Assembly (NCBI GenBank): GCA_948567375.1
Contig: OX419760.1
Location: 14,818,001-14,882,000, forward strand
DNA from: Lunularia cruciata
Lineage: Eukaryota; Streptophyta; Marchantiopsida; Lunulariales; Lunulariaceae
Length of the DNA stretch: 64,000 nucleotides
Direction of reading: 5' to 3'
Position numbers and translations under genes: made by a program. The notes under the pieces are model-generated. The model was given only the letters and a program-made list of their open reading frames with translations. It had not been told where the DNA came from and did no database searches. Numbering within the stretch: the first letter of the stretch is position 1; every line of letters begins with the position of its first letter. This document shows, piece by piece, positions 1 to 33,672 of this stretch.

Positions 1-352
1 CCAATTGCATCAAAAATATCCTTTGGTGTAGGCATGGCATACCAATCAGCCTTGGTCTATTTGTTGATAGGATGGTAATCTCCACGCATCCGCCTATCTA
101 TGTAGTTACTATGCATATCCTTCTTGGTTGGCATCATTGTCACTGATGCATACTCTCCATGTGAGATCTCTACCAAAGTAGCCTCAAAAAGGTCACTACT
201 TTGGCTTTGATCAATGTCCTCTCCATATCACTATATCGATAAGGACGTTGGAAAATTGGTGTATTGCTAGTCAGCTCAATCCATATACCAAGTCCCTTCA
301 AAGCACCCAAGTCCTTCAGATTGAAGGCAAAACAACTTGCATGGCTCCTCAA
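1..352 (-). pseudogene. Reverse transcriptase, N-terminal part, of the methyltransferase-bearing gypsy element
   Basis: The reading frame starting near 352 shows the entry to a Ty3/gypsy RT: a segment with 'FAFNLKDLGALKG', then 'PIFQRPYRYSDMER', which matches the usual 'PI..RPYR.S..ER' block before the first palm strand. Downstream, in a different frame, come 'EYASVTMMPTKK' (cf. 'WASPVVMVPKK'), 'RRMRGDYHPINK' (cf. 'RMCVDYRALN') and 'PTPKDIFDAIG'. At least one frameshift (between about 170 and 190) therefore breaks it. The enzyme would copy the element RNA into DNA. The catalytic YxDD motif lies beyond base 1 and cannot be judged. Confidence 0.75.
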
Positions 353-789
353 GAACCTCCAAGCCCTCCGTCTTTCCTCTCCAGTAAGCTTGGGTCCAAG
401 ATTTGGCTCCTAAGTATCCTCTGTAACTATTGTACGAGTAGAAGACGTATTGACTATCTGCTACACTAGGTCCTTGGGAGCAATAATGGCATGCCCTTGA
501 CCACTAGAGGTCCCAACCTCTATGTGAAAAACTCCCTCCACTCTGGCTTCAAGCTCCACACGTCCTCTAGTTGCATCCCAAGTGGACCAAGGGTATAGTC
601 CAAGTAGCCCACGCTCACCTGGATGGACTCCAAGTAGACCACTCTCCCTAGTAGCTACTAGTTTTGTCCCTAGAATACCATGTCCACTCGGTCTATCACC
701 CCCAACATGTGCTTGAATTGTCCCTATCTGCACATGGCTCACAAGTGTACGTGTGGTGATGCCTATCAAGCGCATCCTATGCTGCTCTG
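353..789 (-). other. Linker between methyltransferase and reverse transcriptase
   Basis: An open stretch of about 120 codons (832-461) begins in the last methyltransferase motif and continues as a Gly/His/Arg-rich segment with no domain I recognise. It contains a short internal repeat ('LLGVHPG' / 'LLGLYPW'). It probably served as the polyprotein hinge between methyltransferase and RT; that role is inferred only from position. Confidence 0.4.
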
Positions 790-1830
790 CCAAGCCAAGG
801 CTCATAATCCAAGTCAAACAATTTAGGTCCATAGCCTAACCTAACACCTAATGCTTGGATGCCTTTGACACTACTGGAATAGCAATAATACCAATGCAAA
901 AACCCATCACCTACTGTCTCTTATCAGCATTGGGCTCCACCAACTACTATAATTGTGAGTCCCAAACAAGTCTAGGTCCTCCTTCTCAAAAAGCATGAGA
1001 GCTTGGGAAACTCATGAGTGTGGGAAATGCGGCTCTAGGCTATCCAACTAGGTTCACCATTGCCATAAGTGACCTATCAGCCACTACCACTATTTGAGAT
1101 TGACGCCCAATATCCAAGATATCATCAACAAGGATATGGTCAAGTTGTTGAATCCCATCATAAGCATGCTATAAAACCTCTCTAGGTAAGAGGTTTGTCC
1201 ACCAAAGATGAAGACAATGAGCTTGTGATCCCACTCTAGCTGCATCTAACAATACAGCAGGTCCCATTCAAGAATGGACCTAATGTGTACTTGCCACCAC
1301 TCTGGTGCAAGAATCACCCATCAAAGGAACATTATCCAAAAGGTAAGCTAGAGAAATGGACTAATGAACTTGGAGATGTTGTAGTATCCGTAACATCTTC
1401 CGAAACACACTAGAACAAGGATCTTGAAGACCCAAACCTTGGCCAACACCTGTATGTCCCTGACATGGCCATCCAAAAATCACCAAGTGAATAGGCCCAT
1501 GTCTCTCTAGATCATGCGCCCCCAATAAGGAAATGATTATTGGTAGGGCCTTCTAGTAACCTTTGGCTGTTGACATTGGTAATAACTCAGGATACCGATA
1601 GGCCAAGTGTGTCACATGATGTAGAGAGACTTGCCTAGCAGTCTCATCTCTCTCTACATTAAAGTAGCTTTGTACTCGTATACTTGCTTGTATTACCACA
1701 GCTAGTTCTGTGCTAATCCCACCAAACAACTCCAATAGACATATCCACTCTATTGGATACTGCCATGCAATGAGTGTGATATCCAAAGGTGTCAAAGTAA
1801 TTGACTCTAGAGGCTCATCCTCACACTCAT
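790..1830 (-). pseudogene. Cytosine-5 DNA methyltransferase domain (DNMT-like), retrotransposon-borne, inactivated
   Basis: One minus-strand frame from about 1830 to 850 reads through the ordered motifs of a C5 cytosine methyltransferase. Motif I 'LELFGGIST' (1732-1706) binds S-adenosylmethionine and resembles the DNMT3 form 'LFDGI.TG'. 'VERDETARQ' matches motif II/III. 'GWPCQG' (about 1474-1457) is motif IV, with the catalytic Cys of PCQ at 1465-1463. 'LLDNVP' (about 1342-1325) is motif VI (usual ENV; here Asp for Glu). 'DAARVGSQAH..LWWTNL' (about 1246-1190) fits motif VIII. 'LVEPNADKRQ' and 'AMDLN' near 930-825 fit motifs IX and X. About a dozen stops, all TAG or TGA, interrupt it, yet I met no frameshift, so it decayed mainly by point mutation. 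It would methylate cytosine at carbon 5. It follows the protease and precedes the RT of the same element, so it is part of the pol polyprotein rather than a host gene. Substrate context cannot be read from the sequence. Confidence 0.8.
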
Positions 1831-1980
1831 CTCTTGATGGTATGAAGGCTCCACTCCAAGCCTATTGCACCAATTGATCTGCATGTTGATGCAATGCCTC
1901 CTCTGAACTCCACAATAGAATATCCAAGGTGGATGGAACAATCCCACTCGTACTCCAAGTCCAAGTGATCTCCTCTGGTA

Positions 1981-2510
1981 CTCAAGTATCCTCTGCATGG
2001 GCGTTCCTCTCCAACAAGTCACCAGGCCAAGTAACTGCACCACTGAAAGCCAACACTGATGTTCCCATGGTTTTGGACTGTAGTGAGCCAAGATTGCCAC
2101 TACTGAAACATACTAGTAGTCGACATACCCATCTCTCACTAGACTGCCAACCTGATCTATAGGAGGTTGTCTCCTCCCAATAGTCAATACTAAAACCCAT
2201 GGGGTATAACACTTCTCCCCCAACTAGCACATCATATGACTCAACTATTGTCGCAATAGCTTGAGCTCTCACCACCAAGCTATCAATCAGGTGACCAGGC
2301 TAACCTAGACAACAAGCTCCTCACGTGTGATGTACTGTGTCAAACAACCACCTAGAGGTGTTTGGATCTGAAATGGACACCTCTCTACATCAGTCTTCCG
2401 TAACTCCAGACCAACTATTGCAGCTTTCCCCAACATAAGAGGCTACGCACCAGAGTCTAACAAGACTCTCTATGGTGTGTAGACCTTCTCTTAAGGTCCC
2501 ACCAAGCAGA
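1981..2510 (-). pseudogene. Retroviral-type aspartic protease of the methyltransferase-bearing element
   Basis: Around 2470-2440 the minus strand encodes 'RVLLDSGA', the D-[ST]-G active site of a retropepsin, followed by 'LMLGK'. Further on, at 2230-2150, 'YDVLVGGEVLYPMGFSIDY' matches the C-terminal half ('YDVLLG..VL') of gypsy proteases. A stop follows 'DSGA' directly and the two halves lie in different frames. The enzyme would cut the Gag-Pol polyprotein. Bases 1831-1980 encode the decayed joint leading into the methyltransferase, including 'AFIPSRDECEDEPLES'. Confidence 0.7.
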
Positions 2511-4457
2511 AAATCCCCCTTTGGTTATCCAATAGGATAACACCAAGTGTGAACCACACTCTCTCAAAGGCCAGTCTAGCTGGCAACTCCTCCAGTCTAG
2601 TCGCTGCTGCCTGCCATAAGCCATTAGTCATTGAACGGATCCCATGCTCCTCAACCAAGTCAGCTCCACTATCAACCACCTCTGCTCTAGTAGTAAGAAC
2701 CGCATCATCCCTACTCTCATAAAGCATGGCAACCAACCGGAACACTAGGGTTGGGTCAACTCCCAATGTAAACATGTCACTAGCTGAAAGCAAAGGGCAC
2801 CACATAATTAGTTGAGCCGCTCCTAACATCGTGCTAGACTCAATCTGTGTAGTAACAGGTGGCTGACTAGCAGGTAGTCGATCATGCACTCCATCACCAC
2901 CTATCACACTTGCATTGGGACGTTTAGGAGCCATGGATGTCATCTGCAATGCCTCAAATAGTGTGAAAGACTAGGGAAGTCCGACTTGTCTCCCAACCTC
3001 TCTTCTTTGTGGATCCAACTCCATTGATGCTCCTCTAGGCTCTAGAGCACATATTGCACTCCTAGTCATTGCTGCAGATGCATCCACTTGTGCCACATGA
3101 AGTCCAAAGCATCTCTATCACCAACATATGAGGTGGAAGCCTTAGCACCCGAATCTAATCTCCTCTAAGCAATGGCCATACTAGCCAATCTCTACTCCAA
3201 CTGCTCAATCCGAGTAGCCATAGCTGTATCAAAAGTAAGGGTAGGTACCGCACACCTACTATGTGTAGATCCTCTACCACCTTGTCCTCCATGAACTGGA
3301 GCTCCTCTACTACCTGCCATAGCAGCCCTACCATTCCGTAACTCCGGATGTAGGTCAAAGCCCCGGTCACTAGTTTGACCAAATCTATGGCAATGCTCAC
3401 ACTGCCTCTGTGCTGGTTGTGATGCACCCAAGGTATTAGGTCCACTACCTTGAGTACACTTTCTCCGATGGTGAGGTCCACCACAAGTCCAACAAACAAC
3501 ATCACTACTCATTGGCTGCTATTGACCCAAAAATGAAGGTAAGGGTCCAACTCCACTAGGCCCTCCACTTGCCCCATAAGATCTGGGCTGTCCACCTTGT
3601 TCTCAAAAACCAATTGGGCGTGGTGCACTCTACTACACTCTAGAAGAAGTAACAATTGTGGATGAGGTCTCCCTACCAAATCTAGATGTCATCACTCTCT
3701 CCTCCACCATGTTGAGCTCAATATGCTCAGCCAAACCAAAGACCACTGCCAAAGTAGGCAAAGTAGCCTATAATAACATAGCATCACAAACTCTACATTG
3801 CAACTCCCTATCTGGTAACCCATACTAAAACTTGATTGCTTAGGCCTCAGTAACTCCTTGAGTGAAATTAATCAGCCGCCTCATGAGAGTGTATACCTTG
3901 CATAGGCTCACTCCAACCTTCTGTTGGAACTCTTACAAGCTCCTTAGCTTGTTAGTCCGCACTCCTTGGTAGTTCTACCTCAAACACAAGAAGAACTCCA
4001 CCATGGGGTTAAACCCTGGTACCACACCACCTCCTGTAGCGGTACCTCCACTCATAGTAGCACTATCTCCAACTAGTGCACCTCCACTAGCTTCATTAAC
4101 ACTACTCAAGCTAGAACTTGTAGGTACAGCCAATCTACTCCTAGCCACCAAACCTAAAGTGATCGAGACATAGTTTGGAGACCAATACTATCTCCATAAC
4201 TCAATCTCCTCCAAATGATCTCTCTTGAACTCATGGTAGTCATCCATTGGTGGACCTTCTAAATATTGAAACAACCCCTTCTTTGCCATGAAGAGCGTAA
4301 ACAAAGTTGTGTTCCGCATTTGCTGTAGGTCATACCAACTATCAAACTCCTGGATCAAGTCATCCAACTCAATGGTACCCATTGTACGAGAGTAACGTCT
4401 AGGGCCTTTAGAGGCCCCATAAATCTTGTCCATGTCCCACAACAACGGTGCGGACAC
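2511..4457 (-). pseudogene. gag polyprotein of the methyltransferase-bearing element
   Basis: The N-terminal part (4457-4188, 89 codons open) ends 'KRDHLEEIELW'. Between about 4000 and 3750 lies a capsid segment of the Retrotrans_gag type: 'VEFFLCLR', 'LRSL.EFQQKVGVSLCKVYTLMRRLI' and 'GLPDRELQCRV', broken by stops. The nucleocapsid part (3512-3192) has a zinc knuckle 'CWTCGGPHHRRKC' (CX2CX3HX4C, one residue short of the usual spacing) and a second, 'CEHCHRFG', whose His and last Cys are replaced by Gln and Gly. A further open stretch (2949-2491, 152 codons) joins gag to the protease. Gag would form the particle and bind element RNA. Confidence 0.7.
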
Positions 4458-5042
4458 ACCAAGTGCACTCTAACTAAATCAGCTCTTGTGTCAGACTCCA
4501 ACTCAGATTTAATCTCCTCCCTCATTGGGACTTGAGATTCAGGCTGATACAGAGTGCCACTTCAAGTTAACCCATTGTGTACTGCAGAGCTAACTCCTTT
4601 GGAATCCCAATAAACTTTGTTGTGATAAAGTAACCATAATTGCAACCACAAACCGGAACCACAAATTGCAACTGCAAGTACCCCACCAAGTGCCAACATC
4701 AACTAAACACCACCAAGTGCCAATAACCATGGAACACCACTCACTAATGTAACTCTAACAAAGATAACTACACTAGGGGAAAAGACAACATGTAACCTGC
4801 CATCACAACGTGCACTCTCATGGTCTGTAGGTTATCACTTCTTGCCTCACTAGAGAGAAACAAAGATAGTTTGATTGGTCACCACTTTAGCGTCACTACC
4901 GAGAGCACACCAGAACACCTACACTCAAAAGTCAGGGCACCTCACACAAACATGGTGCACAAACAAGAAGCCAAGAATGGGTGGGGTCCAATCACAAGAA
5001 ATCTAAATGAAAATGCTCCATCTCATAAAGCAACACGGGACT
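4458..5042 (-). other. 5' leader of the methyltransferase-bearing element
   Basis: Non-coding leader between the primer binding site and gag. I see no separate gene or clear RNA structure in it. Confidence 0.5.
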
Positions 5043-5055
5043 GACTCTGCCACCA
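5043..5055 (-). promoter_or_regulatory. Primer binding site (initiator tRNA-Met-like)
   Basis: On the minus strand TGGTGGCAGAGTC lies two bases inside the LTR end. It resembles the plant consensus TGGTATCAGAGC complementary to the 3' end of initiator tRNA-Met, with two or three changes. It fixes the inner LTR boundary at 5058. Confidence 0.6.
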
Positions 5056-5057
5056 TT

Positions 5058-6300
5058 TGGCATTTGACAAAAAAGAAGTTTATATCTAAGTTCTAAGCTA
5101 CCAGGATCACCAAGAATGGGATCAAATTGCCTCTCCTAGCCAAAGCTACAAGTGTATTGATAATATTTGCATAGTCACTAGGACAACAAGTGAAGTGGAC
5201 GAGTTGGCTATGGCACCAGTCTAGGAATAAGAGATCTAGAGATCAAACCTTGTTGCACACAATCTAGCAATATGGGTAGATTTTGCAAACCAATGACCAA
5301 GATCTACTCTAAACTAGCTAGCCTCACGCCAACAAGCTCATAGCCCTATACCTTGAAGCCTCCAAATACCAAAATTTAGCCAAATAAGGCCTTTCTTCTT
5401 GCCACTTTGAACCTCCTCCAAAATTTAGCAGAACTCCTCCAAACTTGCAAAACTCCTCCAAACTTGCAAAAGTCCTCCAAATTTGGCCAACCAGCAAAAC
5501 TCCTCAAATCTGACCGACCGCCAAATCCCCCGCTACCCCTTCACTTGAGCCAAATTGAAAACACAGGTTTCTCCAAATCATGAATTCATGAGAATAGCTT
5601 CCCAACTCCACCTTCAATTTTACTTTTTGAGCCCAACTTGCAACAAATTGGTCCTGCCTTCATCTCTTGAGCTCAAAATCACAACCACTGCTCAAAAATT
5701 GCTTCTTCTTTGCTCAAAAATTGGCCAGTACTTCTTCACACCATCCGCCTTACTGCCAAATTTGCATCAAACAATGAGCTTTTGCACACCAAGGAAAAAC
5801 TGAACTTCAATTGAGCTACCAACAATCCACTGAGCTTGGAGAAACTACCAACACTTAAAGTTCTTGCACCCAATTTCCCCTTGATTTCACTTCTTTGATG
5901 TAATTAGATTGTTTACAACTCTCAAATACACTCAACTCAGATCAATACTTGACCTGTCATTCTATAAATTGCCAACAACATGGTATTAATTATAGTCAAG
6001 CCACACCCACTCTAGCTAAGAGAATCCAGGTGACACTTGCCGACCTTTGTCCACCATAGCCAAGAACTCAAAGGCTCAACATCAGAGAAGTGAGCTCTTT
6101 GGAGCTCCACTTCAGAAGTATACCCCTGGACTTGAGCTAGGTCTGAACCCTAATGGTCCCACTGACGGCACACTCAATGGTGCAAATGATGCAAAGTGAT
6201 GGTGGGCCCCATTGTGAAGTCAATACCCCAAACATAAAATCTGACCGTCAGAAATTAATCTCTGAGAAACACTGAAATAACTCTAACTACTATCACTAGA
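5058..6300 (-). repeat. 5' LTR of the methyltransferase-bearing element (outer end approximate)
   Basis: The inner end is clear: on the minus strand the LTR ends ..AAATGCCA, then two bases, then the primer binding site. A TATA-like AATTTATAGAAT (minus) lies at about 5963-5974, placing the transcription start near 5935. No second copy is in the window, so the outer end (somewhere around 6150-6320, where relic D begins) could not be set by comparison. Confidence 0.55.
5408..5515. repeat. Short tandem repeats inside the LTR
   Basis: A unit of about 20 bases, close to AACTCCTCCAAACTTGCAAA, recurs four to five times with drift (CTCCTCCAAAATTTAGCA, CTCCTCCAAACTTGC twice, GTCCTCCAAATTTGG, CTCCTCAAATCTGACC). 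It lies in the transcribed (R/U5) part of the LTR. Confidence 0.7.
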
Positions 6301-6319
6301 ACTCCAATGTCCGAGCAAT

Positions 6320-6843
6320 CTAGATGCGACTCTACAAATGGCGTGACAAAAGTGATCTTGGGCTTCCTCCTCCAATTGCTTCATTGCCTTCCACTTCTCT
6401 TCCTCTATCATTCAAAGTAGATCATATTGTTGCTCTTTTATTTTTGTCTTCAATTTCTTTGCTAGATGCTCTAGTTGGATCAACCTTGCATTTGATACTC
6501 AAACATCATTGGATTTTGGCAGTTTTTGCTCATCCCAAATACTTACCACTTCTTTGTTTAAGGCCTTAAGTTGGTCTTCATACTTTAGTTGCTTTTGCTT
6601 CTATTCTAACCAAAGTGCTCTAGATTCTCCGTGTAGCTTCTTGATGTCATCTTTGTATTAGCTATGATCTGATTCAAGTGAAGTGTTTTGTCCTTTACCT
6701 CATGAATTTTAGGTACAAGGTCATTCACCTTCCTTGCCTCTTCCTTGTACAAGTTCCATACCTTTGCTATTTCTTCTTTTGATCAGTCTTCCTTTGCATT
6801 TGAGTGTAGATTACCTTGTGAAGTCTTTGAATCAAGGTCATGT
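6320..6843 (-). pseudogene. Relic 'D', C-terminal coiled-coil part (continues at 35725 beyond the nested elements)
   Basis: Minus-strand frames encode Lys/Glu-rich, heptad-like protein: 'KEEIAKVWNLYKEEARKVN', then 'KVKDKTLHLNQIIANTKM'-like text and, after a frameshift, 'KYEDQLKALNKEVVSI'. It stops abruptly at the AATAC target duplication of element A3 (6844-6848). The rest of the gene lies at 35725-38050. Its partner family member is the coiled-coil half of the C-element protein (21548-23992). Function unknown; transposon origin inferred from that relation. Confidence 0.5.
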
Positions 6844-6848
6844 AATAC

Positions 6849-7244
6849 TGTAAAAGACCAAGACCAAGGAGAGAAAATGGAAGCTCACATTGGGACGCTT
6901 GAATGAGGGAAAACTCCAAATGCCTAGCATGAGCTTTGGCTTTGGTATTTATAGGTAGTATACAAAGCCCTTAAGAAGCTTCTCAAGAAGTTTCTTTGAG
7001 CTGCTTTCTTAGAGTGCAGGCCAAGTTAACTAGGAAGCTTCTCAAGAAGCTTCCTTCTAGAAGCCGCCTACTTGGCCTGCAAGCTAAGCTAGTTAGAAGC
7101 TTCTAGAAGCTACCTGTTTGGTCGCAAGTTAACTAGTTGGTCAACTAGTTTAACTAGATGCGTCTAGAATATTCTAGGCTAATTTGGCTTAGTCTCTACT
7201 TTGTTAGCCTTACTAACTACGTCGCTAAACTCCATATTGTTACA
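6849..7244 (-). repeat. 3' LTR of A3
   Basis: 396 bases, reading TGTAAAAGACC..TATTGTTACA on the plus strand (TG..CA ends). It contains the A-family TATA box (TATTTATAGG) and GAA/TTC heat-shock-element-like blocks, for example AGAAGCTTCTAGAAG at 7095-7109. It is shorter than its partner at 35295. Confidence 0.88.
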
Positions 7245-8795: not shown

Positions 8796-10338
8796 TCTCT
8801 AGAAGGCAAGATAATGTTCCGCATTCAATTCTACATTAGGCAGAAGGAGGCTATGAGAGCTCACTTGGAGAGAACATTAGGAGAAGAGAGGGCTGAACTT
8901 ATGTTAGAGAACCAAGATCCATTTGTATACCCTGTAGTTCATTATGATGTCTTTGAGGTGATTTTATACATCTTGTACACATGAGAAGAATTGGAGAGAT
9001 TGTGTGAGGTGGATTGCAGATTTTGGGGATTAAGGTGATTTTGGGCAAAATCTCAAGTTTGAGATCTGGACTTGAGATTTCTACACATGATAGTTTGGGT
9101 TATCTTTCAGTTATCACACTTGAAATTATTGTGAGAGCTTCTATGGGCACTGGGCTAGAATTTTTGAAAGTTGATAGGGTAAAGTGCTCCCGCAACTGCA
9201 TGCTCTCTGGAAAATTGTACATAGTCTACCATTTCTTCAATTTTCAGTGAATTGTCCTGAAAATTTCCAAGAAAATTCAGTGCATTGTATCCTACCTGCT
9301 GCCACAAAAATTAGAGAGAGATCGTTCTTGCGCAGGGAGAAATGAGTTTTTGAAGTGAAGGGGGTGGTTTTGAGACCAAATCTGAAATATGGGTGTTGAA
9401 TAGAAAGATGTCTAGGCCAAATGGCTTGATTAAAAGATCTGAAATTTTGCAGGAAGGAACACCCTAGAGTTTTGATCAAGTGAGAAAAATTTCAGAGGAC
9501 CATGATATAGTGGTTGGGAGATTTGAGTGACATTGTGAGGAAGGGTCAATTCTACAGAGTGTAGATCTCATGCATGAGGAGTTTGAGATCAACAAAAAGC
9601 ATGTTTGAGTGTTTAGATTCATCTTGGGAACATGGAGGGTCATCAAGAGTGGAAATTGAGATTATGCAAGGTTCCTCAAGGGTTTGAGGTGATTTTAGGG
9701 GTGGATTTGAGGAAAAGAGAGTTTACAATAGAATTTGAAGAGAGTGTTGAGAGGATTCAAAAACCTACACCACTTGGAGGAAAGAGTGAGTCTAAGTGCT
9801 TTCTATTTGGAGAGAAGGGACATAAGGTAAGTTCATGTACATTGACCTTTGAGAGCAAGAGATTGAGGGAAAGTAGAGGCTTACTTGACTTGGGTTTGCA
9901 TGTTGGACCTTCTTCACCAAGATTAGGAGGGAGAAGATCTAAGACCAAGGAGTTGTGTGAGGTTTGTGGAGTGGAAGGACTTCCAAAAGGACATGAGTGT
10001 AGTGGAGTAAAAACACTTTTGGAGACTTTGATGAAGGATCTTGGAGAGAGCCTTAGTATAGCTACAGAAATACTACCACCTTCATCAGCTAGTTCTCAAG
10101 ATTAGTGATGGAGATAATCTTTCAACTTATGGATAAACTATCCATGAGAGTTAGATTAATATGCACTCTAGGATTTGATGTTGCTATGGAAATCTTGGAG
10201 CAACCTGAACCTTTTGTGTTCCCTAGAGTGGATTATTCTCAGATGGTATAAGTCATGTATATACTTTATTAGTAATAGAGTGAGAGAAAAAAAAAGATTA
10301 AAAAAAATTGAGAGAAAGAAAGATAGTGAGAGGTTAAG
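8796..10338 (+). other. Long leader of element B with an extra ORF (9632-10105)
   Basis: About 1.5 kb separates the PBS from gag. It holds an open frame of 157 codons (9632-10105) with two Cys/His clusters: 'CFLFGEKGHKVSSC', which is a CCHC knuckle with its second Cys replaced by Phe, and 'CEVCGVEGLPKGHEC'. Two short segments resemble each other, 'NQDPFVYPVVHYDVFEV' near 8900 and 'EQPEPFVFPRVDYSQMV' near 10200, hinting at a duplicated module. Whether it is translated is unknown. A nucleic-acid-binding accessory protein is a guess from the Cys/His pattern only. Confidence 0.45.
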
Positions 10339-12201
10339 ATGGGGAAACTTCCGGTTTTCTTTGGCAAGGATGGAGAAGATTTGGAGGCCTTTGTGAGAGA
10401 CTTCAAGAGAGCTTGCATAGGAAACAATGAGAGGAGGAAGAATGAGTGGGCCTCATTATTACCAGATTTCTTTGAGGATGCAGCACTTACATGGTATGAG
10501 TCAGAATACCAAAAGAGAGAGAGGAGAGATGAGGAAGAGGAGTCTTGGGAGACTTTGACTTCAGCACTCATTGAGAACTTTCTTCCTGATGAGAGTTATG
10601 AGAGATTGATGAGTGAGGTTACATTTCTCAAGCAAGGAGAAGGAGAGAAAGTGAGAGTCTATGTGGAAAGAGTGGAAAAGTTAGAGTCCAGATTTCGCAT
10701 AATGTTGAGGAAGGGTGGAGATGATGTGGAGAATACAATGATTGGCATAGGGGCCATGCTCAGCAAGAATTTTGTGGGAGGGTTGAGACCACAAATTAGA
10801 AGCAAGGTGAGATATGAGAAACCTTCTTCCAAGGTTGAAGCTATCAAGATCGCAATTTGTATGGAGGAGAGTTTGGAAGGGGATGAGAGTGATTTGGTGG
10901 TGAAGGAGGTTGTGCATCCTCCTCAAGGCTACAAGTATGGTGGAACTTTTGATACTTTGGTGGCAAGGGTTGCACCACAAGTAGTGGTTGCTCCAGTTCT
11001 TGCACCTCCACCAAAAGATCCACTTCAAACCATCACACAACAACTTGCAGATCTCAAGATCAATGTGGTGCAACTATGGGAGAAGAGAGAGGTGGATCAG
11101 AATGTAGGGAGAGGGCCTAGGAGTTATGGAAACTATCCATATAGAGGAGGCCAACCAGCCAACAATTTCAATGATAGAAATTGTTTTGGTTGTGGAGGAA
11201 GAGGCCATATCCAAAGGAATTGCCCAAATTCCACTTACCATGGAGAAAGGAGTTATGAGGGAGCCAATAGAGGGAAAGAGGGAGGTAGTGAAACCCAAGT
11301 GGCTCCTAATCCCAACAAAGGTAAGGGGATAGCATCCATAGATGTGGTTGAGAGCAAGTATGAAAAGGGAGAGTGCTCAAACTCCAAGGGTCTTAATTTG
11401 GAGCTTTTGGCACAAGAGAAGAAGAGAGCTCATTTTGCAGAGGATGTTCACTCTTCTCAAGGATTTACTCCAAGCAAGGATACTCCTATGTCTACTAGGA
11501 GCTCTTGCACCTCAACACCATCAACAACAAAGACTCCAAGGAAGAAGTTGGGGATGGAGGATTTCTTGATTTCAAAGCAACAATGGAACTACAATGTGTT
11601 GGAGGATGTTGGTAGTCACAAGGCTAACATCACAGTGGGCCAATTGATTGCTTTGAACCCTACCTTGAGAAAGGAGCTTAGAGGTGGTTTGAGTTCTAGA
11701 AGGAGCAAGAAGAAGAAGAAGGCAAAAGTTCCAATATCAATGGGGGTGGTGGATACCAAGCCAGCACCATGGGAGGCTTGTGAATATGCCTCCAAGATTG
11801 ATGTGAGAGTGAATGGTCACAACATCAAGGATGCATTGGTTGATGGAGGATCAGCAGTGAATGCCATGTCAGAAAGGTTGATGAAGAAGTTGGGTATGAT
11901 ACCCTCAAGACCTTCAACATTTGTGGTGAGCATGGCAAACAAGCAACAAGTTTGACCAGTAGGAGTGATAGATAAGGTGGTAGTTTCAGTTATGGGAGTT
12001 CAAAATCTCATGACTTTCCAAGTCTTGAAATATTCAAGCTATGACTTACTTCTTGGGAGGCCATGGTTGAGAGCAGCACGCACAACTGATCAATGGCACA
12101 AAGGGTACTTGAGGATTGGGCCATCAAACCATAGAGTCACAGTTCTTGTGACTAACACCACCAACACTTCACATTCAGATACACCATCTTCTGATTATTA
12201 G
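10339..12201 (+). pseudogene. Element B gag and protease
   Basis: The frame opens with 'MGKLPVFFGKDGEDLEAFVR' and reads 538 codons. First comes the Retrotrans_gag capsid domain (residues about 5-180, 'AALTWYESEY', 'ALIENFLPDESYERLMSE'), then a basic nucleocapsid with a perfect CCHC knuckle 'CFGCGGRGHIQRNC' (near residue 285), a Lys-rich stretch, and the protease active site 'ALVDGGSAVNAM' near residue 510. The plant-type D-G-G-S replaces D-S-G. A TGA at 11953-11955 breaks the frame. It resumes in phase with 'YDLLLGRPWL', the second half of the protease, and meets a TAG at 12199-12201. The host-style layout would be one gag-pol frame. Confidence 0.88.
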
Positions 12202-13941
12202 GAATCAGATTCTGAAGAAGGAGCTTCAGGTGTGGACACAAGCATGGAGGAGGAGACTTCCACGGAGGAGGATGAATCCGAATCTGATTCAGATGTGTAT
12301 CCCTTGTGTGCTATGGATTTTGCACCTAAGCTAGAGGTTTTGAAGGACCCAAACAAATCACCATTGACACTTGAGGAGGTAGAGAGAAGGTTAGCTACCC
12401 TCAAGTATGGTCCAAATGTTACCAAGGAGGAGAAGGTGAGATTTGAGGAGATTTTCTGCAAGTTCATCCATGTGTTTGCTTTTAGTTACAGGGATTTGAA
12501 GGAAGTCACCTTGGAGGAGCACAAGATAGAGGTGGAGTCACATGCACGACCAATCCGCCAAAAGCAACATCGCATTAGCCCACCAATATCTTTGGTTGTG
12601 AAGGAGGAGATTGAAAAGCTCAAGGAGGCTGGATTTATCTTTGAGGTGGAGAATTTAGAATGGGTGTCTCCAATTGTCATTGTGAAGAAAAAGAATGGTA
12701 AGCTTTGGGTATGTGTGGATTACAAGAAGCTTAATGTTGTTACCAAGAAGGACTACTACCCATTGTCATTCATTGATGAGATCTTGGAGGAGGTTGCAGG
12801 TCATGAGAGGTACAATTTTGGAGATGGTTATAGTGGATACAACCAAATCAAGATTACACCAGAGCATCAACAACTCACCACGTTCACCACACCTTGGGGA
12901 ACTTACACTTTCAAGGTCATGCCTTTTGGGCTTTGCAATGCTCTAGCCACATTCCAACGGTTCATGAATAAGGTATTTGAACCTTTCATTGGGAAATTTG
13001 TCAGAGACTTCATTGATGACTTTTGTGTCTATGGAAGCAAGGAGGAGCACTTTGAGCACCTAATAAAAGTCTTGCAACGCTTGGATGAGGCAAATGCATC
13101 ACTCAACCCAGAGAAGTGCATTTTTGGATGTGAAGAAGGTCTACTTTTGGGGCACATCATCTCCAAGGATGGAAAAGCAGTTGATCCTAAGAAGGTGAGG
13201 AAAATCTCAGACCTTCCATTCCCTTCAAGCTTGACAAAGTTACGCCAATTATTGGGGATGGTTGGATACTATATGAGGTTCATCTTCTCATTTTCCAACA
13301 AGGCTTATGCATTGACCATCTACATGAAGGAGGGTGTAGATTACAAAGTGATTTTGGAGGACAAGGAGGCTCTCAAAGCTTTTGAGGAGCTCATGCAATC
13401 CCTTGTTGTAGCTCCAATTCTTGCTAAACCTGATTGGAGTAAGCCTTTCATCCTCTACACTAATGCTTCTAATGTAGCTATAGGATGCACTCTTAGTCAA
13501 TTAGACCAAGATGGGCATGATCATCCAATAGCTTATGCTAGTAGGCAGATGGTTTCAACAGAGAAGAACTACTCTGTCATGGAGAGAGAAGGGTTGGCAG
13601 TGATCTTTGGTCTCAAGAAGTTTAGACACTACTTGATTGGAGGGAAAGCCACCATTGTCACGGATCACAAGGCTTTGAAGTACATCTTCAACAAGCCTGA
13701 TGTTGAAGGGAGACTAGCAAGATGGATGATACTCTTATTTGAGTATGACTACACCATTGAGGATAGGCCAAGAAAGAAACATGCAAATGTTGATTTGTTA
13801 TCTAGAACCTATGATCATGATGGAGATGAGCCAGAGGATGATTCCTTCCCGGATGAGGAGCTCATGACAATCTCAGTCACTCAAGAGGTTCCAATGGAGT
13901 ACAAGGAGATTTTGGATTTTGTGACAAGAGTAACTATCTAG
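12202..13941 (+). pseudogene. Element B reverse transcriptase and RNase H
   Basis: In phase with gag-protease, 569 codons are open from 12232. RT motifs: 'WVSPIVIVKKKNGKLWVCVD', 'FGDGYSGYNQI' (usually LDxxSGYxQ), 'TPWGTYTFKVMPFGLCNA', and 'FIDDFCVYG' at the YxDD site (both Asp kept). The connection 'LLGHIISKDG' leads to RNase H with 'LYTNASNVAIGCTLSQ', where the first catalytic Asp (TDAS) is Asn, then 'SVMEREGLAVIFGLKKFRHY' (Glu kept) and 'IVTDHKALKYI' (Asp kept). A TAG ends the frame at 13939. The RNase H change would be expected to abolish activity. Confidence 0.9.
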
Positions 13942-13946
13942 AAGGG

Positions 13947-15164
13947 ATGCATGCTAGGGAGAGGAAGGCCCTTGCAGCAAGATCTAGACCTTACACAATG
14001 GTGGAGGATATTCTTTTTCACCAAGGAGCAGATGGTCTACTTCAAAGAGCAATGGGTAAGGAAGAGTCTATCCTACTCATAAAGGAGTTTCATGAAGGTT
14101 TAGTATGTGGAGGACACTTTGCAGGAAAGGTGACTGCTTTCAAGATTCTAGATGCAAGTTACCATTGGAGAGGGATTTTCAAGGATTGTCTTGATTATTG
14201 CAAAACTTGTCATGTTTGTCAAGCTTTTGCTAGAAAATCTACATCCACTCCACCACTTAGATCAATTCCATTGCTAGGACCTTTTGAAAAGTGGGGAATT
14301 GATTTTGTAGGTCCTCTCAATAGAACCCCAAGGAACAATTGGTACATTGTGGTAGTTACTGATTATCTTACCAAGTGGGTTGATGCTAGACCATTGAGGG
14401 ACAAGAATGAAGATGAAGTGGGTAGATTTCTTTATGAACGCATTATCACTAGGTTTGGATGCACTTTGGAGTTGGTTTCTGATAGAGGAGGAGAGTTTAT
14501 AGGAAGCATTACTACAGCCATGTTATGACATTTCTCTATCACACATAGAGTAACTACATCCTATAAGCCAAATTCCAATGGCTTGGCAGAGAGAACCAAT
14601 CAGACCTTGTGCATGATGTTGGCCAAAGATGCAGAAATGGAGGGAGCTAAACATCATTGGGACAAGAGGATTCATGCAGTTTTGTGGGAGTATAGGACAA
14701 CCATGAAGACTTCCACCGGATATTCTCCATTTCAATTGGTGTATGGTATTGAGTCTACCTTACCTATTCACTTTGATCTTCCTACCTTCCAAAGCATTCA
14801 TAGGAGATTGAAGAAAGCACAAGGAGGTGATGTAGAGAAGTCAAGGAAGGAACAACTCATGGAGTTGGAAGAGGCAAGAGCAGTTGCTATGGTTTGAGTG
14901 GAGCAAGCCCAAAGGAAACAAAAGGAGAGCTATGACAAGCGAGAAGGCAAGAAGAAGGTGGGGCCTTTCAAAGAAGGTGATAAGGTAATGTTGTTTGATT
15001 CCATTCAATTCAAGAGAGTGCAAAAGAAGTTTTTGCCTAAGTACTTTGGACCTTTCATAGTGGAGAAGGTGTGGGGCAATTACACCTATGATCTCAAGGA
15101 GTTGGGAGGAAGACACTTTGATAGGATTAACCATGATAAGTTGAAGATGTACCATAGAAGGTAG
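13947..15164 (+). pseudogene. Element B integrase (no chromodomain)
   Basis: It lies in a different frame from RT, so a frameshift lies near 13941. The N-terminal HHCC zinc module is 'EFHEGLVCGGHFAGK..DYCKTCHVC'. The catalytic core has 'WGIDFVGPL' (first Asp), 'LVSDRGGEF' (second Asp) and 'NGLAERTNQTL' (Glu), so D,D,E is complete. TGA stops at 14526 and 14895 interrupt the frame. The C-terminal part (14898-15164) has 'GDKVMLFDSIQF' and 'FLPKYFGPFIVEKV', a GPY/F-like module, and ends 'NHDKLKMYHRR' with no chromodomain. The polypurine side of the 3' LTR ('CCGAGGGTAAA') follows within 50 bases. Confidence 0.9.
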
Positions 15165-16104: not shown

Positions 16105-16530
16105 TGTAAAAGACCAAACCCAAGGAGAGAAATAGGAGAATAGAAACTCACATTGGGACACTTGAATGAGGGAAAACTCCAAATGCCTAGCATGAGCTTT
16201 GGCTTTGGTATTTATAGGTAGCATACAAGGCACTTGAGAAGCTTCTCCAAAATTTTCCTCAAGCCACTTTCTTAGAGTGCAAGCCAAGTTAACTAGGAAG
16301 CTTCTCAAGAAGCTTCCTTCTAGAAGCCGCCTACTTGGTGTGCAAGCTAAGCTAGTTGGAAGCTTCTAGAAGCTTCCTTCTAGAAGCTACTTACTTAAGG
16401 TGCAAGCTAAGCTAACCATGAAGCTTCCCAAGAAGCTTCCTAGATACTTCCGGAATATTCTAGGCTAATTTGTCTTATGTGCTACTTCGTGAGCCCGACT
16501 GACTTTGTCGTTAAACTCCATATTGTTACA
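16105..16530 (-). repeat. 3' LTR of A2
   Basis: TGTAAAAGACC..TTGTTACA on the plus strand. TATA (TATTTATAGG) lies at 16209-16218. A perfect four-unit heat-shock-element-like block GGAAGCTTCTAGAAGCTTCC sits at 16358-16377, upstream of it in the element's orientation. Confidence 0.93.
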
Positions 16531-21134: not shown

Positions 21135-21620
21135 ACTGACTTGCACTTTGAATTTCTCCACACACTCATAAACATAGACACAAAGTTGATACTCAGAATC
21201 AAGCTCAAGCGACGAGCACTGCTTCACAGCACTTTGCTTTATCTATTCTCAGAAATAATGAGCACTGAACAACAATTTCATGCGAATGCCACTCTTAAAT
21301 AGTGAAGCAAATTGACAGTTCTAACAACTATACCGTTCTACAACAACTCTTCTAACCTGCAGATGCAAAATGACAATGCACCTCTTCATATTTTCTCCTT
21401 CAAATCTCAAATCGGTTACTAATCCTATCCAATGTCTACTTCTTCTTTGGCTTTCAAACCCGAACCCAAACCCTTCTTACTTCCTACTACTTTTTCCTCG
21501 GGTTTCAGATCTTCTACTTCTTCTACCAGATCTAGCAATTCTCTTTCCTAATCTGAAATTTCACTAGTGGGTAATCTATCTAACTCCTTATCTCTTGACC
21601 CACTTTTCTCTAATGTCTCT
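21135..21620 (-). repeat. Right arm of the large inverted repeat in element C
   Basis: Partner of 20095-20640. It overlaps the C-terminal codons and 3' region of the C gene. Confidence 0.8.
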
Positions 21621-23992
21621 GATGGTAACTTCAAAGACATTTGGACTCCTATATTATCTACTTTGAGTTTTGCTTTAACAGCTTTTCGAAGCTTTTCTAG
21701 CTCTACTTTCACTAAGTCTAATCTAATTGAAATGTTATCCTCTACCTCCAAAACCTTCCTATCTACATGAGTTCTTAATTTTATTAACAAGGCATTCATC
21801 TCCGTGTCCTTTGCTTGTCTTTGCCTCGTCTCCTGCACCAACAACTTCAACTCGTGCAGTCGCGCTTCTTCAATTTGAACGCTGGCTTCTGTACTTAACA
21901 TTGCGTTCACCCTGAGGACTATCTCCTTCAATGGGTCCAATCTTGTCTTCCATTCTCGTTCACGATCTGCAAGCCATTCCTCTCGGTACATTGCCAACTC
22001 TTCTTCGTACTTGGCTTTCACCGCTTCCTTCTCTTTCTCCTTCTGTACAACTTTCTCTTCCTGATTACGAAGTAACTCTTGTAATCTCTCTTCTTCTCTA
22101 TATTGCACAGCCAACTCTCTTTGCCAGAGTTGCTTCTTCTCCTCCATACTCTCCATCACTTGATTGAGCTCTTGATCCTTTGATGCTACCCTTGCCATAG
22201 CATGGATAAGCTCTACTCTTGAATCAGCAAACTGCTACTTCAAGATTCCGTGCTCCGCTACATGTCTCTCCCTTGCGATGTCACTCTTCCTTGCAAGATC
22301 CTCTCGATAGCTCACCTCTCTCTTCAGGTCTTCGATTACTTGACTTCTCTCTACTGCTTCCGCTTGTAGTACTTCTCTCTCCTCCTCACCTCGGGTTATA
22401 CTCCTCTTCAACTTCGAGTTCTCCTCTTCTAATCTTGCTACTACCTGCAATATAGTCTTTACCTCTGGACAAGTCGATTGCATCTCTTTCTTCTTCTGCT
22501 CCAACTTCACCAACAGCGTGCACACTACCTCTCGCAGGTACTCCACTCCATCACTGGCAACTTCTTCCTCCCACGGAGTGGTCTCTCTCTTCTCCTCGTG
22601 TTCTCCTGATATGCGCCTTCTTCTCTGAAGTCTTCGTATTGGGATTGATGCCTCACTGCCTGAGCTTCCTTTGACCTCTTCCTTCACTCTACTCGGCCCC
22701 GCCTCACACTTCACCTTACGTCTCGAGCAAACTCCTCGCTGTACTGCAATCTTCTTCTCCTCGGGCACCGGTACTTCGTCTTCCAGCGCCGCATTGTCTT
22801 CAGCTTCTACTTTGGCTTGCACTTCTTCTTTGTATTCTTCAGCCGCTGGCGCCAAGGTCATTTCTCCACCGTCTTCACTGTCATTGCTCGTATCTCCGCT
22901 TTGCAGTGTCAATTCAGGTTCCTCCTCATGTTTTGAGTCCTCCGTCTTGAGCTCGGCCTTGCCTTTTGAGTCTTCATCTTCCGACTCAATCACCACCATT
23001 CCTCGCCTTGGGTTATTTTTTTGCATCTTTTGAGGTTTCTTGTTTTCTTTGGCTTCTGCTTGCCGAGTTCTCTTCTTCGTCGGGTTACTTACTACGACCT
23101 CCACATTTTTCCCTATCTTTGCGTAGTAGTCATCCGTGGTCCGGATTTGGAGAATGTATTGCTGCTCCTCGACATTGACTTCCTTTCGCACATCCAGATG
23201 GAAGTGCGACACCATCTGATTTTGCTCTGCCAAGGTCAGCAAATTGAGCCCAAGGTAGAAATGCGCCTCAAATGGCACAATGTAATGTGGAGGTGACTTA
23301 TCCCACAGATTCCACACCTTTTGCCTTGTTCTCCCATGAAAACACCTCGCCCAATTAATTGGTTCTCCTGCAAACAATTTGTGAAAGAACACCGCTTGGT
23401 GTTTCATCACATATGTTGTTCTCTCCGGCTTCAGGATTCCCATCAAAGCATTCACAATTCCTCTCTTGACAGGGTCTTTGTAACTTTCTACCTTGTACCC
23501 ATTCTTCGTTCTCTTCGACGAGAAGGCATCTCTCACCTCCTTCGTTTCTTGGGCTATCTCTCCCTTCCCCAAGAACGTGGCTCCCTACTCCAAGCCCGCC
23601 TCCTTCCCGAGTACAAGTCTCCAATCCGACTCTGTCCAGCAAGCCGGATTTCCTCTCTTCCCTTCTTCCTTGGGACCATCGAGACACTTACTCTCGATGA
23701 TTTCTGTCATGAATCCTGGAAAACTTACGTTCCAATTCCATGCCAAAAAGGTGATCCGAAGTCGGCTCAAGACTTCAATCCTCGCTACTACATCTAATCT
23801 CCAAATTGCATGATTTCTCACTGCGAATTTGGAGTTCTTCTTCCCTCCTCCCATCTCTTTGGCTTTCTCACTGTCTCTCAATTTCTCTCTCACGACTTCT
23901 CCCTTGCGCACTAACACGAGTCCAACTCTATTTCCCTTTCCCCGATCACCTGCAAGACGACTCCTCAACGGTGAAGGAAAATTGCTCGACAT
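21548..23992 (-). pseudogene. Element C protein: long acidic/coiled-coil protein, two stops
   Basis: One frame runs from ATG 23992 to a stop at 21548, about 814 codons, broken only by TAG at 23585-23587 and 22235-22237. In order: a basic N-terminus; a conserved block near residues 190-260 with 'AVFFHKLFAGEPINWARCF' and 'PFEAHFYLGLNLLTLAE'; a basic nuclear-signal-like stretch 'PTKKRTRQAEAKENKK'; an acidic region 'VIESEDEDSKGKAEL' onward; then from about residue 450 long heptad-rich coiled coil ('ARLEEENSKLKRSI', 'MESMEEKKQLWQRELAV'). I do not recognise a catalytic domain. The same block occurs in relic D. A gag-like or DNA-binding role is possible; none is shown. Confidence 0.7.
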
Positions 23993-24013
23993 TTTGTCGT
24001 TGCAGTTTCAATT

Positions 24014-26508: not shown

Positions 26509-26523
26509 CCTGCTCTAATACCA
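26509..26523 (-). promoter_or_regulatory. Primer binding site of A2 (initiator tRNA-Met)
   Basis: Minus strand TGGTATTAGAGCAGG, one base inside the LTR, close to TGGTATCAGAGC. A3 (35279-35293) and A4 (28516-28530) have decayed versions. Confidence 0.8.
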
Positions 26524-26628
26524 ATGTAAAAGACCAAACCCAAGGAGAGAAATAGGAGAATGGAAACTCACATTGGGACACTTGAATGAGGGAAAACTCC
26601 AAATGCCTAGCATGAGCTTTAGCTTTGG

Positions 26629-26638
26629 TATTTATAGG
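26629..26638 (-). promoter_or_regulatory. TATA box of the A2 5' LTR
   Basis: CCTATAAATA on the minus strand, conserved in every A LTR in the window. Confidence 0.7.
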
Positions 26639-26651
26639 TAGCATACAAGGC

Positions 26652-26870
26652 CCTTGAGAAGCTTCTCAAGAAGCTTCCTCAAGCCGCTTTCTTAGAGTGC
26701 AAGCCAAGTTAACTAGGAAGCTTCTCAAGAAGCTTCCTTCTAGAAGCCGCCTACTTGGCATGCAAGCTAAGCTAGTTGGAAGCTTCTAGAAGCTTCCTTC
26801 TAGAAGCTACTTACTTAAGGTGCAAGCTAAGCTAACTAGGAAGCTTCCCAAGAAGCTTCCTAGATACTTC
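26652..26870 (-). promoter_or_regulatory. Heat-shock-element-like array in the A LTR
   Basis: Upstream of the TATA box in the transcribed direction lie repeated inverted GAA/TTC units. A perfect four-unit block GGAAGCTTCTAGAAGCTTCC (nGAAnnTTCnnGAAnnTTCn) sits at 26778-26797. Several two- and three-unit blocks (GAAGCTTC, TTCTAGAA) lie at about 26658-26680, 26718-26753 and 26850-26868. This is the binding pattern of trimeric heat shock factors. Heat induction is inferred, not shown. Confidence 0.6.
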
Positions 26871-28089: not shown

Positions 28090-28514
28090 TGGAACAATAT
28101 GGAGTTTAGCAATGAAGTTAGTTGGGCTTACAAAGTAGCACATAAGACAAATTAGCCTAGAATATTCCAAAAGTATCTAAGAAGCTTCTTGGGAAGCTCC
28201 CGGCCAACTTAGCTTGCACCTCAAGTAAGTAACTTCTAGAAGGAAACTTCTAGAAGCTTCCAACTAGCTTAGCTTGCATGCCAAGTAGGCGGCTTCTAGA
28301 AGAAAGCTTCTTGAGAAGCTTCCTAGTTAACTTGGCTTGCACTCTAAGAAAGCGGTTTGAGGAAGCTTCTTGAGAAGCTTCTCAAGGGCTTTGTATGCTA
28401 CCTATAAATACCAAAGCTAAAGCTCATGCTAGGCATTTGGAGTTTTCCCTCATTCAAGTGTCCCAATGTGAGTTTCCATTCTCCTATTTCTCTCCTTGGA
28501 TTTGATCTTTTACA
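28090..28514 (+). repeat. 5' LTR of A4
   Basis: 425 bases, TGGAACAATATGG..CTTTTACA (canonical start TGTAAC mutated). Heat-shock-element-like CTTCTAGAAGCTTCC at 28247-28261 and TATA near 28402-28411. The PBS at 28516-28530 reads TAGTATCAAAGCAGG. Confidence 0.9.
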
Positions 28515-29610
28515 TTAGTATCAAAGCAGGAATGGGATGGATGGAATTTATGGACCACCAAATCTACTTCCACCAAACCATTGGGATTTTTACGTCCTGT
28601 GAGCCGGCCTATCTCTCACTCAAGATGAACCTCTGATGGTTATTATAGTAGCGCCCCATGGACTAAGAAGGCAAGGAACCCCAACTCCATCATACTCCTC
28701 CAAGGCTAACACTCCAAGACTCAAGACATTGCTCACTAGAGAACTCAATGAGAGAGAGATAGTTGCAAATGAAAGGATGATCAATACCTCCTCACCCCTT
28801 GTTTATATACTTGTCAAATAGTTACATACCAAAGTTACTAATTACTGGAGTAACTCAAGTTACTAGGCTAAAAGTCAAGTAAAGTCAAAAAGTAGAAAGG
28901 AATATCCATTCACATGGGCATATTCCACTAAGCATGTGATCTTATCTTGACGCAACCACTAAGTCAAGGATTCCTTCACATGGGCTATCCTTGGACTATA
29001 GAAGAATCCAAAACAAAAAGGCTTGCATGCCCAAGAGTTCTCAACTCTTTTCTCAAAGCCAAACACCTAGGAATAATACCAAGTCAACACACTAGAATCC
29101 AAAATAGTGGTGCTCATCTTTTCCACTTCCTCTTAAGTAAGGTCCCCTCTATCTTAGCTATGACTAACTTTAGCTAATCATGACTAATGTAGAACCATCC
29201 TTTATCTCTATATAAATAATATCTTTCAAGTACTTGTAATACCAAGCTAAATATCAAAATACCAAGCACATGCACAAATGGGTGTTACAGTCCAAATACT
29301 ACCCAAGTATTGTTTCACACAATTCATCAACTCACACTTTAGACAAGATTTTCTGCATATGATCACCATATTCGAGGAACCCTTGGTGCTACAACAACCA
29401 ACAACAAAGCCACAACAAAGCCTACCAATACACTACACAAAAGTGGAGGAGCCAGCACCCATGGAGATTGATACCATTCAACAAAGACCACTTGGCATAG
29501 CAGATAGAGAGAAATTGCGACAAAATGATGGTTGTTTCTATTGTCGCCAATTGGGGCATTGCATTGTTGAATGTCCACTCAAGAATGGACGACCTCGATA
29601 AGTTGCCCAA
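28515..29610 (+). pseudogene. A4 leader and remnant gag (zinc knuckle)
   Basis: The leader is interrupted by the solo B LTR. After it, 'MEIDTIQQRPLGIADREKL' and the CCHC knuckle 'CFYCRQLGHCIVEC' (about 29533-29575) remain. Compared with A2, roughly 0.7 kb encoding the capsid domain is absent, with a join near 29390. Confidence 0.8.
28598..29289 (-). repeat. Solo LTR of family B
   Basis: 692 bases, TGTGAGCCGGCC..GGGTGTTACA, the reverse complement of the B LTR. It lies in the A4 leader with GTCC on both sides (28594-28597, 29290-29293). No B internal sequence is present, so it is the product of LTR-LTR recombination. Confidence 0.92.
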
Positions 29611-31730: not shown

Positions 31731-33242
31731 TTGAAGTCTCTTCCTCTCATCACAATGGCCATTTCAACTGTATCAGTTGACTCCAAGGTCCAAAACAAGT
31801 TTCAATCAGCTCTACACCAAGATCCCTTCTTCCAAATGGTACATGGTTACCTTACGGCATGTGATAAGGAGTATAACACCTTCTCTATCAAGGAAGGCCT
31901 TTTATTCCATGAGGACCGGATCTATATTCCAGCTAAAGGTGATCTTTGACTTGTGTGCCTTCAAGAAGCCCATGATTTACCCATCATGGGTCACATGGGT
32001 GTGGACAAGACCTTGAGTACCCTCCAATGTCAATGGTGGTGACCCAACATGACACAAGATGTTTGAGAATTTGTCAGATTGTGTGAGAGCTGCCAACGTA
32101 ACAAGGCCAGCAACCAAAAGCCGAGTAGACTCCTTCAACCACTCACCGTTCTATTTACTCATTGGTAGCATGTGAGCTTGGATCTCATTACATCCTTACC
32201 AAAGACAAAACAAGGACACACCGCAATTGTAGTGTTTGTGGATAAGCTTAGTAAGCAAATCCACTTGGCACCAACCTGTGATATCATGGATGCTCCAACC
32301 TTAGCACAAATCTACTTCAACAATATCTTCAAGCATCATGGGATGCCACGTGTACTCATCTCCGACCATGATCCTTGATTTACCAAGAAGTTTTGGCAAG
32401 CACTCTTCTAGATACTTGGCACCAAGCTTGCTTTGTGCACAGCCTAGCATCCTCAAACTGATAGACAAACCAAACGTGCAAATCGTACATTGGAGGATAT
32501 GTTGCATGCCTTTGTCAATGTCCACCATACCAATTGGGATGAATGTCTTGCAGCTGCAAAATTTGCCTACAAGAATTCCAAACAAGCAAGCACCGAATTT
32601 TCTCCTTTCTTTCTTAATTTTGGCCAAGATCCGCTTGTTCCCAATTCTCTTCTTGCTCCCCCTCCATCTTAGGTTCCTCATACTTCCACATTCTTGACCA
32701 CTATATCCCAATCTCTCCAACAAGCTAAGTCTCACCTCCTTGTTGCTCAGAACTGCCAAAAATAATATGCAGACCACCATCATCCTGATCTCACCTTTGA
32801 AATTGGTGATAAAGTCATGTTATCCTCTAGTACCCTCCCTTTCCCAATTGATACCCAAGTTCGTAAACTTGCCCTTAATTGGATAGGACCCTTTTATATC
32901 ACCCGAATTGTCTTTCCTATTGCTTATCAACTTGCCTTGCCTTGTCACATGCGTATCCACCTTGCCTTTCATGTTTCCAAGTTGAAACACTTTGTTCCTA
33001 ACCCCTCTTCCTTTTCCTCTCAATTCCAACCTGAGGAGTACAAAGTTGATCGTATACTCGTGCATTGCCATATTCAACAAGGCCGTCGCCAACATACAGA
33101 GTACAAGGTCCTTTGGAAAGGGTATTCCCTTCATGATGCCACATGGGAATCTCTTTCTCACCTCCACAATGCACAAACGGCCATCCAAGAATTTGAAGCT
33201 TCACTGGCAACGAGGACGTCACCAACTAGCGGCGGAGGAATA
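31731..33242 (+). pseudogene. A4 integrase with chromodomain
   Basis: N-terminal zinc-module text near 31960-32110, core 'SLDLITSLPKTKQGHTAIVV' (32172 onward), 'VLISDHDP' (second Asp kept), 'NRTLEDMLHAFVNVHHTNWD'. The open stretch 32817-33308 has the GPY/F-like 'LNWIGPFYITRIV' and the chromodomain 'EEYKVDRILVHCHIQQGR..EYKVLWKGYSLHDATWES', with the usual aromatic residues. A purine tract CGGCGGAGGAATA precedes the 3' LTR. Confidence 0.88.
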
Positions 33243-33672
33243 TGTAACAATATGGAGTTTAACAATGAAGTTAGTCGGGCTTACAAAGTAGCACATAAGA
33301 CAAATTAGCCTAGAATATTCCAAAAGTATCTAAGAAGCTTCTTAGGAAGCTTCTCGGCTAGCTTAGCTTGCACCTCAAGTAAGTAGCTTCTAGAAGGAAA
33401 CTTCTAGAAGCTTCCAACTAGCTTAGCTTGCACGCCAAGTAGGCGGCTTCTAGAAGGAAGCTTCTTGAGAAGCTTCCTAGTTAACTTGGCTTGCACTCTA
33501 AGAAAGCGGCTTGAGGAAGCTTCTTGAGAAGCTTCTCAAGGGCCTTCCTTGTATGCTACCTATAAATACCAAAGCCAAAGCTCATGCAAGGCATTCGACC
33601 TTTTCCCTCATTCAAGTGTTTCAATGTGAGTTTCCATTCTCCTATTTCTCTCCTCAGATTTGGTCTTTTACA
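33243..33672 (+). repeat. 3' LTR of A4
   Basis: 430 bases, TGTAACAATATGG..CTTTTACA. It has the same TATA and GAA/TTC blocks. Confidence 0.92.

Follow-up and report, generated by a model that had tools for sequence, protein, structure and literature searches.

A Ty3/gypsy element with a methyltransferase domain

The window analysed here, a stretch of 64,000 nucleotides of Lunularia cruciata contig OX419760.1, carries on its minus strand (4433-1) a decayed Ty3/gypsy retrotransposon in which a cytosine-5 DNA methyltransferase (MTase) domain lies between the aspartic protease and the reverse transcriptase (RT). The coding order is gag, protease, MTase and the start of RT, which is truncated by the window edge. 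A gag with CCHC zinc knuckles, an aspartic protease and then RT, the series by which the element is assigned to Ty3/gypsy, are all present in this copy.

All parts of the element lie on the minus strand. Its 5' part (4434..6842), read from the sequence, consists of an untranslated leader and probably the 5' long terminal repeat (LTR), its outer limit being provisional. The LTR probably sits in the interval bounded by the start of gag and by the repeat at 6843-7000, which belongs to another family, and can only be called probable because no second LTR was found within the window, the 3' end of the element being beyond the window edge. A sequence resembling a primer binding site, TGGTGGCAGAGTC, which we take to be of the tRNA-Met type, was read at 5055-5043. 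The broken gag (3117..4433) was delimited by tblastn with residues 1-435 of the Marchantia protein P0037 (50% identity), and motif reading placed two CCHC zinc knuckles within it at 3494-3456 and 3401-3348. A spacer and the aspartic protease (2320..3099) follow, matched by tblastn in frame -1 with P0004 and P0007 (3099-2347 and 2856-2320), and the protease active site LLDSGA was read at 2463-2446. The end of the protease region (YDVLVG at 2236-2219, YPMGF at 2206-2192) and a linker occupy 1748..2299, and are aligned with residues 367-899 of P0004 on 2299-698 (51% identity), an alignment that also covers the MTase frame, as does that of P0037 over 2293-500. Between the MTase (797..1747) and RT lies a second linker (410..796) with partial matches to P0002 (to 485), P0004 (to 698) and P0037 (to 500). 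The start of the Ty3/gypsy RT (1..409) is read in two frames, with P0007 residues 697-771 on 409-185 (57%) and 761-830 on 218-9 (64%).

The initial annotation had proposed such an element, with a cytosine-5 MTase between protease and RT, and had quoted a series of ordered MTase motifs in one minus-strand frame. All of these motifs were located, between 1726 and 821, in the order FGGIST (1726-1709), VERDETARQ (1657-1631), GWPCQG (1474-1457), LLDNVP (1342-1325), DAARVGSQAH (1246-1217), WWTNL (1204-1190), EPNAD (937-923) and AMDLN (835-821). The extent of the domain, approximately 1747-797, was set by comparison with relatives. A search of a protein collection with the MTase returned 34 proteins at E <=0.01; the best (E 4.9e-133) was 60% identical and aligned with 100% of the 351 residues used as query. 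This homology rules out a chance or artefactual origin of the motifs and, together with the profile comparison presented below, backs the proposed element.

Relatives of the element and type of the methyltransferase

Organism names were attached to 16 of the 34 matching proteins, all of them bryophytes (11 Marchantia polymorpha, three Sphagnum and two Calypogeia fissa); the other 18 were unnamed. An alignment search enlarged the set of relatives to 181 (120 listed). PF00145 scored above the cut-off in six of the nine relatives scanned (P0002, P0004, P0007, P0030, P0021 and P0032). In a motif scan of 132 relatives, protease and MTase were found together in 16, and the protease came first in all of them, P0119 showing one stray MTase-like motif upstream of the protease. 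Both P0004 and P0119 are among the proteins that combine CCHC, protease and MTase in one chain; in P0007 the MTase is followed by RT and RNase H, and in P0027 by the RT start and an integrase core. Because the order of protease and MTase is constant, with RT/RNase H or integrase downstream, the MTase block is regarded as part of pol and not as a separate later insertion, in agreement with the initial annotation.

A second layout was observed in the deep relatives P0030, P0032 and P0034, where the MTase is directly followed by an integrase zinc-binding domain and no RT domain was detected in the protein; RT may lie upstream in another frame. These three proteins form a separate clade with support of 100/100 and long branches, and, as far as their sequences indicate, the MTase may occupy two positions in such elements. 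A PHD finger, possibly serving as a chromatin reader in some relatives, was found at the end of P0034 (Pfam E 2.1e-09) and of P0028 from Marchantia (4.4e-09). The phylogenetic analysis started from 49 domains with a coverage of >=85% plus DNMT3A; dereplication left 44, and 40 were used after the partial models P0027, P0028, P0029 and P0115 had been dropped. In the resulting tree, the root of which is unsafe, the DNMT3A outgroup covering 49% of the columns and having a long branch, the window MTase clusters in a clade with bryophyte rows. Phage relatives were also considered: viral contigs yielded 51 loci, none of which exceeded 46% identity in its best segment.

The type of the MTase was analyzed by comparing a family profile with structure chains, 60 of the 80 matches being listed. 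DNMT3 scored 77.9 bits, and the best non-DNMT3 chain among the matches listed was 4onj (37.1 bits), labelled 'DNA methyltransferase' and presumably a plant DRM; DRM2 reached 28.3 bits and DNMT2 21-22 bits. A DRM, DNMT2 or bacterial type was rejected, since the chains of DRM, HaeIII, HhaI and DNMT2 fall far short of those of DNMT3; among the 60 matches listed, none was labelled DNMT1 or CMT. The predicted fold of one relative was nearest to DNMT3A/B, and the motif order I-IV-VI-VIII-X in the window is linear, without the rearrangement of the DRM type. PCN in motif IV is typical of animal DNMT3. The window copy has Gln after the catalytic Cys, as do 44 of the 45 relatives with a residue at this position; DNMT3A has Asn, its motif IV reading Pro-Cys-Asn. 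Because of this Gln, we designate the MTase as 'DNMT3-type', which is nearest to DNMT3, rather than as a canonical DNMT3.

Conservation along the element was calculated from eight aligned proteins; the eight pairs reported come from five proteins, and so are not independent. The MTase was 69-77% identical in the eight pairs, as compared with 33-58% for the spacers and 56-74% for the protease, and identities of 48-56% (six pairs) were obtained for the linker behind the MTase and 59-63% for gag (three pairs, of which two span just 27 columns). The RT start was measured in a single pair, the Marchantia and Sphagnum elements P0007 and P0027, and was more conserved than the MTase (84.8% identity across 125 residues). 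This identity seems high for such old lineages. Horizontal transfer between liverwort and moss elements is possible. Among 48 aligned relatives, counted where any residue was present at the position, the ENV Glu was conserved in 45 of 46; for the pair of Arg in motif VIII the counts were 40 of 44 and 40 of 43. A regex count recovered all five motifs in 18 of the 48 domains, a low number that probably reflects truncated entries and a strict regex; the count by alignment columns was used alongside it. With conservation as a proxy for purifying selection, the MTase is integral to the element and has been maintained, because the catalytic Cys is kept (43 of 45) and because the MTase is the best conserved of the segments upstream of RT in six of the eight pairs; in the remaining two the protease exceeds it by one point.

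Decay of the window copy and neighbouring features

The frame 2299-170 contains 17 stops (14 TAG, three TGA and no TAA), 12 of which fall within the MTase at 1747-797. The catalytic Cys is retained, the ENV Glu of motif VI is replaced by Asp, and both Arg of R-x-R in motif VIII are lost; in addition, the reading frame changes between gag, protease, MTase and RT. The window copy, in which neither the open frame nor the full set of residues of an active MTase is present, is dead, as the initial annotation had stated.

Several other repeats were found in the window. A less decayed gypsy element (10330-14525, plus strand) has long open frames for gag, protease, RT, RNase H and integrase. Its gag-protease open reading frame gave a single match at E <=1e-10 among 7995 candidates scored, Marchantia P0133 (54% identity over 46%), which is suggestive of a bryophyte and no proof. 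The repeat at 6843-7000 occurs in seven copies, the others being located at 16105-16257, 26516-26677, 28362-28520, 33516-33672, 35295-35453 and 36803-36910 and 82-89% identical to the first; six of the seven adjoin or overlap a tandem array whose units are 60-63 bases long. They are perhaps LTR pieces of one family, which differs from that of the MTase element. A chromovirus neighbour is marked by the tail of an integrase (32766-33305, plus strand), in which SH3_Tf2-1 and Chromo domains were identified. Long open frames of 449, 228 and 140 amino acids are present at 21548-24007 (minus strand), with no Pfam match for the 449-residue frame. ARAGORN and Rfam, at gathering thresholds, gave no matches on the window.

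Comparison with published elements and proposed role

MTase-bearing retrotransposons have been published in dinoflagellates and charophyte algae, as the initial annotation stated: PMC5890265 reports, for Klebsormidium, DNMT3 within a Gypsy Pol and, for Symbiodinium, DNMTs carried by DIRS and LINE elements. The closest published case that we found, described by de Mendoza et al. (2018, PMC5890265), is KnitGypsy-Dnmt3 from Klebsormidium nitens, likewise an unrearranged DNMT3-type domain in the Pol frame of a Gypsy LTR element of a streptophyte. It is reported to be under purifying selection (Ka/Ks under 0.2), and the catalytic residues are conserved both there and in the bryophyte relatives. It differs in being algal and in having a DIRS-like repeat structure. 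The comparison is by description only, and the domain order and the PHD finger are not comparable, since 'protease' and 'PHD' are absent from that main text. No match named Klebsormidium occurred among the 34 proteins or among the 120 of 181 relatives listed, many of which were unnamed. SymbioDIRS-Dnmt3 of Symbiodinium is similar in having DNMT3 in a retroelement Pol, but belongs to a DIRS element with a tyrosine recombinase and is described as an independent acquisition (PMC5890265). DNMT3 genes of plants, PpDNMT3b for example (Yaari et al. 2019, PMC6453930), share the unrearranged DNMT3-type domain and occur in land plants; compared by description only, these host genes are characterized, in the passages considered, by a C-terminal DUF3444, whereas the window MTase lies between protease and RT. 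DRM2 has a related catalytic domain (28 bits with the family profile), but PMC5890265 and PMC6453930 describe the DRM motifs as rearranged, whereas those of the window MTase are linear.

According to a passage of PMC6338049, no DNA methylase is encoded by transposons in land plants, and the bryophyte relatives contradict this statement as worded. The main text of PMC5890265 contains none of the words 'gymnosperm', 'fern', 'Pinus' and 'conifer', and uses 'bryophyte' once, for the clustering of a host gene. We found no report of MTase-bearing retroelements in bryophytes in the open-licence literature, as judged by titles and abstract openings and excluding supplements, and such elements are likewise unmentioned in the passages of PMC9033089, PMC8616336, PMC11244446, PMC10952607 and PMC6453930 considered; a prior description elsewhere is possible.

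We consider it highly probable that the window holds a decayed copy of a Ty3/gypsy family with the order gag, protease, DNMT3-type MTase, RT and RNase H, with integrase further on and a PHD finger in two relatives, bryophyte copies of which have an open MTase keeping the catalytic residues. As the main role of the MTase we tentatively favour, at somewhat less than even confidence, CG methylation of the element's complementary DNA (cDNA). The element's own protease would release the MTase from Gag-Pol, the released enzyme would be packaged in the particle, and it would methylate CG sites on the double-stranded cDNA before or at integration. The methylated cDNA would then enter the genome resembling host heterochromatin, or the mark would steer the new copy to a tolerable state. 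The window copy decayed afterwards, probably under host methylation.

It is important to mention that several observations weigh against these proposals. The PF00145 search suggested by the initial annotation did return matches on the window frame, yet both were below the curated cut-off (E 0.016 for the motif-IV piece and E 0.11 for the frame when its stops were written as X), and it is the family profile and the homology that were decisive; among the relatives, PF00145 was below the cut-off in P0034 and was not detected in P0027 and P0028, whose gene models are without parts of the domain. RT onward lies beyond the window edge, a full-length element was not seen in any relative, the gene models of annotated relatives may conceal breaks behind introns, and the PHD finger was found by pattern in only two of 133 proteins (P0034 and P0028). 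The stop spectrum, with CAA versus CAG at 20 versus 8 in the frame 2299-170, is tilted towards the loss of methylated cytosines at CHG and CG sites; this evidence is only partial, because six of the 14 TAG stand at columns that are mostly Gln in the relatives, and one of the three TGA at a mostly-Arg column, so that simple deamination fits only in part. CpG observed/expected is 0.21-0.24 in the element (three bins of 2 kb) versus 0.02-0.75 in the 29 other bins; the whole window is CpG-poor (0.02-0.75 over 32 bins, with 26 below 0.35), which points to heavy CG methylation. A footprint of self-methylation was rejected, the depletion in the element being no greater than in its surroundings. Finally, KnitGypsy-Dnmt3 was inactive in yeast, a result that its authors called inconclusive, since human DNMT3B also failed (main text of PMC5890265).

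Rather unlikely, in our opinion, is that the MTase was kept against the host, methylating host DNA or competing with host DNMT3 or RNA-directed silencing and thereby weakening the silencing of the element. PMC6453930 describes the true DNMT3 of the moss Physcomitrium as a de novo enzyme, and an element-borne DNMT3 could compete with it for sites or partners; the location inside Gag-Pol, between protease and RT, however, favours action in the particle. That RNA is the target of the domain, or that it provides a platform for nucleic-acid binding in the particle, with DNA methylation not being the selected function, appears improbable. RNA methylation was raised by the authors of PMC5890265 for the LINE-borne enzyme, and in their yeast assay, according to the main text, the Klebsormidium domain gave no signal, whereas DIRS domains, among them that of SymbioDIRS-Dnmt3, methylated CG de novo; against such a role stand the low scores of the tRNA enzymes of the DNMT2 type relative to 78 bits for DNMT3, and the retention of the catalytic and motif VIII residues in the relatives. 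That a host DNMT3 gene or a bacterial methylase was inserted later and independently into an old dead element seems hardly tenable. One listed match, P0062, carries a retroelement-type MTase under the label of a Candidatus Obscuribacterales metagenome-assembled genome; it groups, however, with the element sequences in the tree (its root being unsafe), and is probably a mis-binned eukaryotic contig. The identical order in relatives from three bryophyte genera also argues against it, as does the failure to find a relative when GTDB genome contigs were scanned with P0002 (12 pattern matches, of which none was confirmed).

A broader possibility, which we regard as speculative and on balance doubtful, is that land plants hold a long-lived Gypsy family with a methylation writer (DNMT3) and a histone reader (PHD behind integrase), which would pre-methylate its cDNA, choose its chromatin and have moved between mosses and liverworts. 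Although methylation ranks among the chief defences of plants against transposons, this family brought along an enzyme of that kind, conserved better than its gag and linkers. Marchantia is a genetic model, and the role of the element-borne MTase could be tested there by its removal.
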